NCBI GenBank assembly: GCA_030523725.1
Contig: JAUNHV010000001.1
Coordinates: 124,001-188,000 of the forward strand
Length of the DNA stretch: 64,000 bases
Origin: Synergistaceae bacterium
GTDB lineage: Bacteria > Synergistota > Synergistia > Synergistales > Synergistaceae
Direction of reading: 5' to 3'
The notes under the pieces are model-generated. The model saw only the letters and a program-made list of their open reading frames with translations, did no database searches and had not been told where the DNA came from. Positions 55,663 to 59,504 of the stretch are shown piece after piece; within the stretch, counting starts at the first letter, position 1; each line of letters begins with the position of its first letter. The position numbers and the translations under genes were made by a program.

Positions 55663-56289
55663 TTGGCTCGTGCATTGAATGTAAACCCTAATAGAATGGA
55701 ATTATCGCGTTTGAAGCGGCTGCTTGCGGTTGCCAAGCGCGGTCACAAACTCTTAAAAGATAAACAAGACGCACTTGTAAAAGAATTCTTGGAAAAAGCC
55801 AAAAAAACTTATGAACTTCGTAATGAAGTTGAAAGTGAACTGTCAAGTTGCTATGGTGGATTTATGACAGCAAGAGCGATGGTTTTGCCAAAAGTTTTGG
55901 AACAAACCTTACTTACGTCAAGTGGCGAAATGAAGGTCGATGTTTCATACAAAAATGTTATGAGCGTTAACATTCCTTCCTTTGCATGTGAGACACTGAA
56001 CCCTCAGCTTAATTATGGGCTTGCCTCTTCACCAGGCAGCCTTGACGTTGCGTTGGAAAAATTTTTAAACCTTTTGCCAAAGCTTTTGAAGCTTTCCGCA
56101 GAAGAAAAAGCAATTTTCTTGATGGGGCAGGAGATTGAGCGAACAAGGCGAAGAGTTAATGCTCTCGAGCATGTTATGATTCCGTCCTACACTGATTCAA
56201 TCAAGATGATTTCCATGAAGCTTGATGAAATGGAGAGAGCAACCCTTAGTCGCTTGATGGTTATAAAAGAAATTGTTAGAAATCACTAA
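55663..56289 (+). CDS. ntpD: V/A-type ATPase subunit D (central shaft)
   Basis: A 208-residue subunit D: two long helices at the ends ('NPNRMELSRLKRLLAVAKRG', 'LKDKQDALVKEFLE' near 37 and 'RRRVNALEHVMIPSYTDSIK' near 168, read as 'RTRRRVNALEHVMIP') form the coiled shaft that turns inside the A3B3 head. The motif RRVNALE..(I/M)IP is the family signature. It starts with TTG, with AAGGGGTGAG upstream. It is the last gene of the nine-gene operon and ends at a strong hairpin. Confidence 0.95.
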   Translation: MARALNVNPNRMELSRLKRLLAVAKRGHKLLKDKQDALVKEFLEKAKKTYELRNEVESELSSCYGGFMTARAMVLPKVLEQTLLTSSGEMKVDVSYKNVMSVNIPSFACETLNPQLNYGLASSPGSLDVALEKFLNLLPKLLKLSAEEKAIFLMGQEIERTRRRVNALEHVMIPSYTDSIKMISMKLDEMERATLSRLMVIKEIVRNH

Positions 56290-56654: not shown

Positions 56655-56894
56655 ATGAGGCTTTATGAAAATACAAATTTGACTGAGTTATTGAAAACAG
56701 CAAGACTTGAGTCTGAATTGTCTCAGGAGCAATTGGCAAAAAAAATTGGTTGCACAAGAGAAACGGTTTGCAAAATTGAAAATGGACGAGATGAACCGAA
56801 ATATAGAATTTTCTACCGTTGGCTTAATGCGTGCGGTAAACAATTGATTGTGCGCTCGTATAAAACTGTGGAAATTGATATTGACGTCAAATAG
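56655..56894 (+). CDS. XRE-family HTH transcriptional regulator (antitoxin-like)
   Basis: A 79-residue DNA-binding protein. The Cro/C1-type HTH covers residues about 9-60: 'LLKTARLESELSQEQLAKKI', with recognition-helix region 'CTRETVCKIENGRDEPK'. Size and layout are like HipB- or HigA-type antitoxins and phage repressors. GAGGAAAA lies upstream of the ATG. No partner toxin (HipA, HigB) is next to it; the neighbours downstream are gene fragments. The strong promoter and a 23-bp repeat array upstream make self-regulation possible. Confidence 0.85.
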   Translation: MRLYENTNLTELLKTARLESELSQEQLAKKIGCTRETVCKIENGRDEPKYRIFYRWLNACGKQLIVRSYKTVEIDIDVK

Positions 56895-57679: not shown

Positions 57680-57889
57680 TTGCAAAAATATGATGCTTTA
57701 CCCATACATAAAAAAAGGACAATGTCTCACGGAAAGGCAGCAGAGATTTTAGGAATTTCAAAATTGAAACTCTCAGATTTGTATGGAGATTGCGGACTTC
57801 CTTATTTTGATATTGAAAGGTCTGAAATAGAAAAAGAGATACAAACATACTATGCCCTAAAGGATAAAAAATATGATAGTTGTATCTGA
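57680..57889 (+). CDS. UPF0175-like protein (antitoxin-type)
   Basis: A 69-residue protein. 'TMSHGKAAEILGISKLKLSDL' (read as 'SHGKAAEILGISKLKLSDL') followed by 'YGDCGLPYFDIERSEIEKEI' matches the UPF0175 plan: SxGKAAEL(L)G(I/M)S, GxxGIPYFDxxxxELxxEL. UPF0175 genes are often paired with PIN-domain (DUF3368) genes, probably as antitoxin and toxin. The start is a TTG after AGGATCAGTAGTGATAGG; part of the usual N-terminus may be missing. Its stop overlaps, by 17 bases, a reading frame that begins exactly like a DUF3368 toxin but stops after 11 codons. Confidence 0.72.
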   Translation: MQKYDALPIHKKRTMSHGKAAEILGISKLKLSDLYGDCGLPYFDIERSEIEKEIQTYYALKDKKYDSCI

Positions 57890-57908: not shown

Positions 57909-57952
57909 AAGGGATACTTACGTATGAGCCAAAAAGAACTCTAAAACATCAT

Positions 57953-57980
57953 TTGAAAAACCATGTTTTTCAAATATAAT
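57953..57980 (+). promoter_or_regulatory. Promoter overlapping a perfect palindrome
   Basis: TTGAAA (57953-57958), 16 bp, TATAAT (57975-57980). The palindrome TTGAAAAAC / GTTTTTCAA around CAT (57953-57973) covers the -35 box and spacer, as a repressor operator would. It lies 28 bp before the 51-codon gene. Confidence 0.7.
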
Positions 57981-58007
57981 TGACCTATAAGAGAGGAGAT
58001 GCTAAAT

Positions 58008-58163
58008 ATGCGTAATGCTTTTTTAGATGGTGCAGCGACATTGTTCACTTTTGCAGCTGATGATTGGTATAAAATGCCAAGTGACGAAGAAGCAATAAGG
58101 CAGGATTGGGAAATTGTAGGTAGCTATATCAGAGGTGCTATGAGTGAAACAGCAGCAAATTAA
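58008..58163 (+). CDS. Small protein of 51 residues, DUF2335-neighbour type
   Basis: A short but convincing gene: GAGAGGAGA lies eight bases before the ATG, and a promoter with a palindrome lies 28 bases upstream. The product is acidic and soluble, with 'NAFLDGAATLFTFAADD' followed by 'SDEEAIRQDWEIVGSYIRGA'. The pattern S-D-x-E-A-x-x-x-D-W-x-x-(V)-G is one I recall from small ORFs near DUF2335 genes, but no function is known. Its last 20 bases overlap a GTG start of a DUF2335-like frame, so the pair was translationally coupled before the second gene decayed. Confidence 0.7.
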   Translation: MRNAFLDGAATLFTFAADDWYKMPSDEEAIRQDWEIVGSYIRGAMSETAAN

Positions 58164-58412
58164 ACCTGTCGCACAACAAATTACTACTTCATATCAAGGC
58201 CCCATTCCACCAGCTATTGAAATGGAGCGATACGCCACAATTAATCCCGATTTTCCTAGTAGAATTTTAGCTATGGCAGAACAGCAACTGTTGGCGGTGT
58301 GATGTGTGTATTGCGTGGCTACAATATACAGGGACTTGTTTTGATACTTACACAGTTAGTGGGGATGTGTGGTGTTTTTATTTATGCAGAAAAATATACA
58401 AAAAAGAACTGA
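58144..58412 (+). pseudogene. Broken DUF2335-like membrane protein gene
   Basis: Two pieces in different frames. The first (58144-58302, GTG start) reads 'YQGPIPPAIEMERYATINPD' and 'FPSRILAMAEQQLLAV' and stops; this is the DUF2335 N-terminal motif (GPLPPP..L..Y....PG...RI..MAE.Q). The second (58314-58412) reads 'RGYNIQGLVLILTQLVGMCG' and 'VFIYAEKYTKKN' and stops, which fits the membrane-helix end of the same family. The middle segment, usually rich in charged residues around HR...E, is missing. The gene has therefore lost an internal stretch and shifted frame. Family function is unknown. Confidence 0.65.
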
Positions 58413-58417
58413 TTTTA

Positions 58418-58440
58418 AGCGTGCTATGCACGCTTTTTTT
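58418..58440 (+). terminator. Terminator after the DUF2335 remnant
   Basis: AGCGTGC pairs with GCACGCT around TAT, followed by a run of T. A compact intrinsic terminator, still intact although the gene before it is broken. Confidence 0.85.
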
Positions 58441-58760: not shown

Positions 58761-59504
58761 ATGTCAGGACATTCACATTGGGCAGGAATTAAACACCGCA
58801 AGGCTGCACAGGACGCAAAAAAAGGTGTAGCGTTCCAAAAGTTGGTTAAAGACATCATTGCAGCTGCAAAAGCCGGTGGTGGAGATCCAAATGCAAATTT
58901 TAGATTGAAAGTTGCTATTGATAGAGCAAAGGCAGGAAATGTTCCTGTTGATAACATTGAGCGTGGTATCAAAAGAGGAACTGGCGAGCTTGGCGGACCG
59001 ATGGAGGATATCTACTATGAGGGATATGGTCCATGTGGTGTTGCCGTTATGGTTCACGTTATGACAGACAACAGAAACAGAACTGCACCAGCAATGAGGT
59101 CACTTTTTACAAAGACAGGTGGTTCAATTGGTGAAATGGGTTGCGTTGCTTGGAACTTTGAAAGAAAAGGTGTTATTCAAGTTACTGGCAGTGGTATCAA
59201 TGAGGATGAAATTATGATGGTTGCTCTTGATGCCGGTGCAGATGACGTCGAAGCAAATGAAGAAGGATTTGAAATTGATTGTGAGCCAACAAGCCTATCT
59301 GATGTTGGCGAAGCTTTAAAGAATGCTGGCTACAACGTTGAGTCAATGGAAGTTAGTATGCTTCCAAAAAATACTATTTCTATCACCAAAAAGGAGGACG
59401 CACAAAAGATGCTCTCCATGGTGGAGCGTTTTGAGGATGACGATGACGTTGAAGCAGTTTATGCAAACTTTGACATTCCAGAGGAAATCCTTGCACAACT
59501 TTAA
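58761..59504 (+). CDS. yebC: YebC/PmpR/TACO1-family protein
   Basis: A 247-residue YebC of normal length. 'MSGHSHWAGIKHRKAAQDAK' is the invariant start (usually SGHSKWANIKHRK); 'NFRLKVAIDRAKAGNVPVDN' near 46 and 'YEGYGPCGVAVMVHVMTDNR' near 96 are the next blocks, and the end 'VEAVYANFDIPEEIL' is typical. The family acts on transcription and on translation of difficult proline stretches. AAGGAGAG precedes the start. It leads the ruvCAB operon, and its last 14 bases overlap ruvC. Confidence 0.97.
   Translation: MSGHSHWAGIKHRKAAQDAKKGVAFQKLVKDIIAAAKAGGGDPNANFRLKVAIDRAKAGNVPVDNIERGIKRGTGELGGPMEDIYYEGYGPCGVAVMVHVMTDNRNRTAPAMRSLFTKTGGSIGEMGCVAWNFERKGVIQVTGSGINEDEIMMVALDAGADDVEANEEGFEIDCEPTSLSDVGEALKNAGYNVESMEVSMLPKNTISITKKEDAQKMLSMVERFEDDDDVEAVYANFDIPEEILAQL

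Follow-up and report, generated by a model that had tools for sequence, protein, structure and literature searches.

The 51-aa protein encoded in the window (the whole 64,000-nt stretch of DNA analyzed here) is probably, at an estimated likelihood of about 80%, the cytosolic component of a membrane complex of two subunits, the other being the DUF2335 protein. Computational analysis of the gene pair revealed (i) near-obligate adjacency with overlap, (ii) a shared phase of the overlaps, and (iii) co-evolution of an Asp residue of the small protein with an Arg residue of DUF2335. We infer with high confidence that the C-terminal helix of the small protein packs in an antiparallel orientation on the juxtamembrane helix of DUF2335, with the Asp and Arg forming a salt bridge.

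The small gene and the broken DUF2335 gene of the window

The features of the transcription unit are collected in Table 1. As the first-pass annotation had stated, an untouched frame with a good ribosome-binding site precedes the remains of a DUF2335 gene and overlaps its start (GTG 58144) by 20 bases. A second ATG, located upstream at position 57999, leaves no room for a ribosome-binding site. The near-invariant residues of the family correspond to D33, W34 and G38 of the window protein. The palindrome reported at the promoter is also present, although its arms are longer (11 bp) than the 9 bp originally given. Arms of at least 11 bp are rare, having been found in just 3 of 160 slices of 110 nt sampled from the window. 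The genome has a single exact copy of the palindrome; the closest other sites carry 2–3 mismatches, and such near-matches are not commoner than those of a reversed-pattern control. Promoter-like sites show no excess across the region (4 versus 4.4 in shuffled sequences).

Table 1. Features of the small gene and the DUF2335 remnant in the window
Feature	Position	Strand	Remarks
Inverted repeat ATTTGAAAAAC-CAT-GTTTTTCAAAT, perfect 11-bp arms, 3-nt spacer, operator-like, overlaps promoter	57951..57975	.	
Sigma-70-type promoter TTGAAA-16-TATAAT	57953..57980	+	11/12 consensus positions; TTGAAA 57953-57958, TATAAT 57975-57980, spacer 16 nt
Ribosome-binding site AGAGAGGAG	57990..57998	+	9 nt 5′ of ATG 58008
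Small gene, 51 aa, intact, DUF2335-partner family	58008..58163	+	recognized by a model without the window sequence; ATG 58008 and stop TAA 58161-58163 read from the sequence
DUF2335 remnant, N-terminal piece (GPIPP...RILAMAEQQ), shares 20 bp with small gene	58144..58302	+	model positions 28-70 in frame 58144-58299, E 8e-13
DUF2335 remnant, C-terminal piece, other frame, second transmembrane helix	58263..58412	+	model positions 101-142 in frame 58263-58409, E 3.5e-7
Intrinsic terminator 58417-58435, closes the unit	58417..58440	+	

The downstream gene is a member of DUF2335 (PF10097; phrog_3996, "membrane protein", moron class). The loss of its middle and of its frame, noted at first reading, was borne out by the profile model: about 30 codons and the reading frame are missing at a deletion junction lying at approx. 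58281–58291, and what is left is not an intact domain with two transmembrane helices in one frame. The deletion begins just past the MAEQQ motif (DUF column 47) and ends within the first transmembrane helix, and the Arg and the stalk are gone. Because the gene is cut, its PF10097 score (21.7 bits) falls under the cut-off of 25, while phrog_3996 matches both pieces (E 5.4e-10 and 0.0027). The 1.55-Mb genome to which the window belongs contains only this one DUF2335 match and the small protein therefore has no other known partner; with a membrane subunit that lacks the Arg-bearing segment and the first transmembrane helix, it is an orphan. Apart from the deletion, the two pieces showed no lesion, which makes a recent break probable.

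The module is located in a gene-poor stretch between a frame ending at 56289, which we take to be V-ATPase-subunit-D-like, and a gene starting at 58761, which is presumably YebC-like. Just upstream of the module lies a truncated UPF0175 gene (PF03683, E 1.9e-5; 57680-57889, + strand); UPF0175 is often seen in toxin-antitoxin operons. The same island contains a gene for a small helix-turn-helix protein (56655-56894, + strand; HTH_3, E 1e-11), for which HipB-like NCBIfam matches remain below the cut-off. The island as a whole gives the impression of an accumulation of decayed mobile or toxin-antitoxin genes.

Association of the small gene with DUF2335

A search with the 51-aa sequence alone revealed no homolog in 59 relatives, genome contigs, viral contigs, phages or plasmids, because the small protein belongs to a fast-diverging family; without DUF2335 as bait, the window gene would therefore have looked like an orphan gene. 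A DUF2335 search of 185 genomes of the phylum gave matches in 20, and the small frames located upstream at these loci share the motif D-W-x-x-V-G-x-x-I; most either extend into DUF2335 or end close to its start. In phages and plasmids a small frame occupies the same place at 25 of 25 DUF2335 loci (25 of the 41 records found), three of which (L028, L037 and L040) have frames that escape the later small-protein model. A model built from 50 members without the window sequence finds the window gene at E 3.6e-10, as the sole significant frame of 1,778. Four PF10097 matches (L016, L017, L019 and L021), which we take to be elongation-factor-G-like frames, were dropped, as was L332, whose candidate small gene is a fragment of a 268-aa frame.

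Homologs of the 51-residue frame adjoining DUF2335 in other genomes, whose absence the first-pass annotation had named as refuting its reading, were clearly found, and the claimed two-gene module is strongly supported. Four DUF2335 alignments used as bait yielded at least 272 loci (at least 80, at least 80, at least 80, and 32). Among the matches listed, 320 loci were pooled, 315 of them with DUF2335 as judged by our own model, and 243 were distinct. At 202 of these 243 listed loci a small-protein model made from 15 seeds matched directly upstream of DUF2335 (187 of 228 listed loci after removal of the seed loci), and an iterated model raised the number to 218 of the 243 listed. Elsewhere, among 30,392 frames, the two models matched only 1 and 2 frames, respectively. 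Inspection by eye of the 25 loci missed by the iterated model revealed that 7 have no upstream DNA, one (L244) is a fusion by deletion, and the rest mostly have a diverged ORF in the right place.

In the reverse approach, with the small gene as bait in surveys of three phyla (185, 348 and 247 genomes; after removal of one false frame, and with a gene broken into two pieces counted as one locus), DUF2335 was present next to 23 of 27 small-gene loci, and is broken at 2 of these 23; 2 of the 27 loci lie in genomes chosen as survey centers for having DUF2335. The small genes without DUF2335 are those of L329, L331 (in which the small gene is broken too), L372 and L378, and the small protein can thus be kept without DUF2335, for some time at least. 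When whole genomes were picked for DUF2335, 38 of 39 carried the small gene (39 copies, one genome having two), and DUF2335 follows in all 30 copies fetched from whole genomes. Two variants of the pair occur in Escherichia coli, in 69 and 209 of 5,426 genomes; for one variant, the two halves were detected in 206 and 208 of the 5,426, and 208 genomes contain no less than 80% of the entire variant.

Some loci depart from the common arrangement. At the same module site of two related genomes, one (L328/L011, G154) contains both genes and the other (L329, G152) only the small gene, DUF2335 having been lost. The single frame of L244, in which the small gene and DUF2335 are fused by an apparent deletion, is either an artefact or a natural fusion. 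In three loci of one genus (L010, L012 and L014) the small protein encoded ahead of a diverged DUF2335 differs in sequence and possibly represents a second partner family. Several enterobacterial phages (L025, L026, L043 and L437) have a third small gene of about 53 codons after DUF2335, annotated as "transmembrane anchored protein" or hypothetical.

Of 194 pairs in which a script called the two starts, 157 overlap (median 20 bp), and 137 of 142 overlaps of at least 7 bp are in the phase seen in the window. The small gene is under purifying selection across the family; outside the overlap, the pN/pS value pooled over 8 pairs, two of them without any small-gene difference, was 0.25.

The distribution of the module is sporadic, with the small gene present in 13 of 185, 3 of 348 and 11 of 247 genomes of the three surveys. 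Judged by record titles, most of which are of MAGs, it occurs in Bacillota, Actinomycetota, Chloroflexota, Planctomycetota, Acidobacteria, Verrucomicrobia, Patescibacteria, Zixibacteria and others, and further carriers are Leptospira and proteobacterial phages and plasmids. Family-wide, the module is cargo of temperate phages, placed apart from their core genes; the window copy is not in a recognizable prophage.

Upstream regions of the module reach a palindrome score of at least 7 in 57 of 184 cases, versus 16.6% of 873 upstream regions of other genes and 10.7% of shuffled sequences; at a score of at least 10 there is no excess over the other upstream regions. Palindromes are a tendency only, and a common regulator of the module was rejected, because they share no common sequence.

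Co-variation and predicted structure of the two proteins

Mean-field direct coupling analysis was performed on 245 distinct pairs of small protein and DUF2335 (effective number 202). Couplings within DUF2335 dominate, as expected, but the second strongest coupling overall, and the strongest between the proteins, links alignment column 37 of the small protein with column 51 of DUF2335 (z 9.6). Column 37 is the Asp of the DW motif (D33 in the window) and column 51 the Arg of the HR motif. The mean of the top 10 inter-protein couplings was 5.44, versus 2.0–2.8 (at most 3.04) in three kinds of re-paired controls with 12 shuffles each, and the Asp-Arg pair ranked first in 8 of 8 random half data sets.

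The two residues also change together in evolution. On a tree built without the Asp and Arg columns, both change on 9 branches, the small-protein residue alone on 4 and that of DUF2335 alone on 2. When the commonest residue was set against the rest, there were 14 and 10 changes, 9 of them shared (p 5e-15), and by shared branch changes Asp-Arg is the best of 6,664 column pairs (the next having 1e-5). At the tips, 218 of 242 pairs combine an acidic with a basic residue, 6 have the basic residue without the acidic one and none the acidic without the basic; the remaining 18 have neither, and these were counted against the proposed complex.

Further inter-protein couplings (small protein–DUF2335 columns) are 37-47, 44-51, 30-51, 42-40, 42-43, 38-43, 17-70 and 17-73. 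Along these couplings, column numbers increase in one protein while decreasing in the other, a pattern that we read as one of putative antiparallel helix packing; a few couplings, e.g. 2-121, do not fit. The positions of DUF2335 that co-vary with the DW..VG helix of the small protein are held by the segment modeled in PF10097. Short of experiment, this co-variation is strong evidence that the two proteins probably bind each other directly.

Structure prediction gave helices at residues 2-14 and 26-50 of the window small protein (mean pLDDT 79.6), and at residues 35-44, 48-101 (54 residues) and 105-141 of DUF2335 (query from L129; pLDDT 91.2). Membrane-like hydropathy (19-residue mean of at least 1.6) is a property of 189 of 194 DUF2335 proteins and of 12 of 198 small proteins. 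The fold models appear to have no solved structural relative within these searches: a PDB sequence search gave nothing below E 0.1, Foldseek against the PDB gave no match at E 0.001, and the best hit of the VIA fold search (Z 7.5, on long helices) is within the noise stated for that tool. Two unnamed viral proteins were matched in BFVD (E 1.9e-7 and 2.0e-4).

Pfam, NCBIfam and PADLOC revealed no meaningful family for the small protein, and no DNA-binding domain was recognized in it. In PADLOC-DB, 8 of 10 proteins had no match and two matched at only E 0.026 and 0.0084; weak matches to LeoBC of PADLOC were obtained for 10 of 83 (best E 2.9e-4). Isolated weak matches to Sau3AI (E 0.051) and REase_II (E 0.0084), a lanthipeptide leader match of one of 51 small proteins (E 0.00013) and WXG100-like matches of four of the 51 (best E 0.005) were all rejected as chance.

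In the proposed complex, the C-terminal helix of the small protein (DxxALxxDWxxVGxDlRxA) would pack, in antiparallel fashion, against the long juxtamembrane helix (AeRIlxMAExQxxHRQ) of DUF2335, the predicted Asp-Arg salt bridge would lock both helices, and the N-terminal hydrophobic helix of the small protein would be placed close to where the first transmembrane helix of DUF2335 begins. The gene overlap may keep both proteins in step via coupled translation.

Possible functions and comparison with known systems

Could the small frame be a mere leader, whose translation controls DUF2335 and whose product has no role? The frame is short, overlapping and upstream, and has a strong ribosome site of its own, but purifying selection outside the overlap, the near-invariance of D, W and G across phyla and the residue-level co-variation with DUF2335 render this highly improbable. 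Such family-wide selection is distinct from the continuing selection that had been claimed for the window gene after its partner broke, and which our data do not support: since the break is probably recent, an intact small neighbor is expected anyway. That the gene is intact merely because the deletion is recent, and not through selection, seems fairly probable, as both DUF2335 pieces still match the model well (Table 1) and there are parallel cases of an intact small gene with a DUF2335 gene that is split by an insert (L321), gone (L329) or interrupted by an internal stop codon (L015). Against it, damage to the small gene next to an intact DUF2335 is very seldom seen (at 236 loci with upstream sequence, inspected by eye, L244 is fused and L288 doubtful), and such a bias toward intact small genes is what a toxin-antitoxin pair would give. 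Decay on the DUF2335 side in 4 of 4 cases is not significant, because DUF2335, as the longer gene, is more easily hit. We dropped the idea of DUF2335 decaying ahead of the small gene beyond length expectation, which had no statistical support from so few cases. No close relatives of the window small gene were found in the collections searched.

The cargo position, overlap, palindromes, sporadic distribution and purifying selection fit either a toxin-antitoxin or abortive-infection device of temperate phages or an exclusion system. The module may act like the former, DUF2335 being a Gly-rich two-helix membrane effector held back by the small protein encoded upstream, a suggestion we make with low confidence. 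More specifically, and tentatively, it could be a widespread phage-borne two-subunit membrane machine, in which the small protein would clamp the DUF2335 stalk via the salt bridge and the antiparallel helix, and release, e.g. on phage infection, would open or kill the membrane; if true, this would be a new anti-phage or toxin-antitoxin type in a dozen or more phyla, with DUF2335 as the effector. It is also conceivable, if somewhat doubtful, that the two subunits form a superinfection-exclusion or lysogenic-conversion complex that jointly alters the envelope or blocks entry of the DNA of other phages, neither being toxic. The position as temperate-phage cargo beside an integrase, lysin or att site in many annotated records, exemplified by the E. 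coli copy between potC and a prophage integrase, accords with exclusion, as do the moron class of DUF2335 in PHROGs and an obligate pairing that fits a stable complex; the module is, however, also widespread on contigs not recognizably phage, and some phage copies have structural or replication genes as neighbors.

Neither Pfam nor NCBIfam has a model for the small family, which is scattered over four unconnected phage families without function, PHROGs 27385, 26284, 10654 and 23666, matched by 17, 10, 2 and 2 of 51 small proteins, respectively. The window protein matches none of the four at E 0.01, and 26284 at E 0.1. The literature searched, which includes few subscription journals and preprints, and some papers only in part, contains no paper describing the small protein–DUF2335 pair, no description of an obligate upstream partner of DUF2335 and no mention of the four PHROGs, and mentions DUF2335 in two papers, there only in passing. 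In the records examined the partner of DUF2335 is labeled "hypothetical protein" or is unannotated. A phospholipase label for DUF2335 was set aside, because we presume it to be a misprint for DUF2235, of a kind that could mislead text searches. The label stands in a list of secreted effector domains, as "DUF2335 (phospholipase)" (Table 1 of PMC6267618). In Dickeya zeae, deletion of a DUF2335 gene, one of 13 screen hits, lowers potato maceration, and the portion of that report consulted is silent on the mechanism (PMC8809351).

As DUF2335 is annotated by itself, experiments on it alone would miss a constant partner. The predicted Asp-Arg contact would allow the complex to be tested through two residues, and pairs amenable to work in laboratory strains are available from E. 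coli prophages.

The module resembles type II toxin-antitoxin operons in having the small gene first, overlapping frames (157 of 194 pairs), a promoter palindrome, a mobile and sporadic distribution and predicted protein-protein binding, and differs from them in that the partner is a two-helix membrane protein, that the small protein has no recognized DNA-binding domain and that NCBIfam offers no meaningful match. In the RexA-RexB system of phage lambda, two genes expressed from the prophage likewise encode one cytosolic and one membrane protein; to our knowledge, both Rex proteins are larger than, and unrelated to, the small protein and DUF2335. A phage-borne two-gene pair is a known class of object, and the small family, as an obligate DUF2335 pair with a predicted contact, appears to be a new member of it as far as our searches go.
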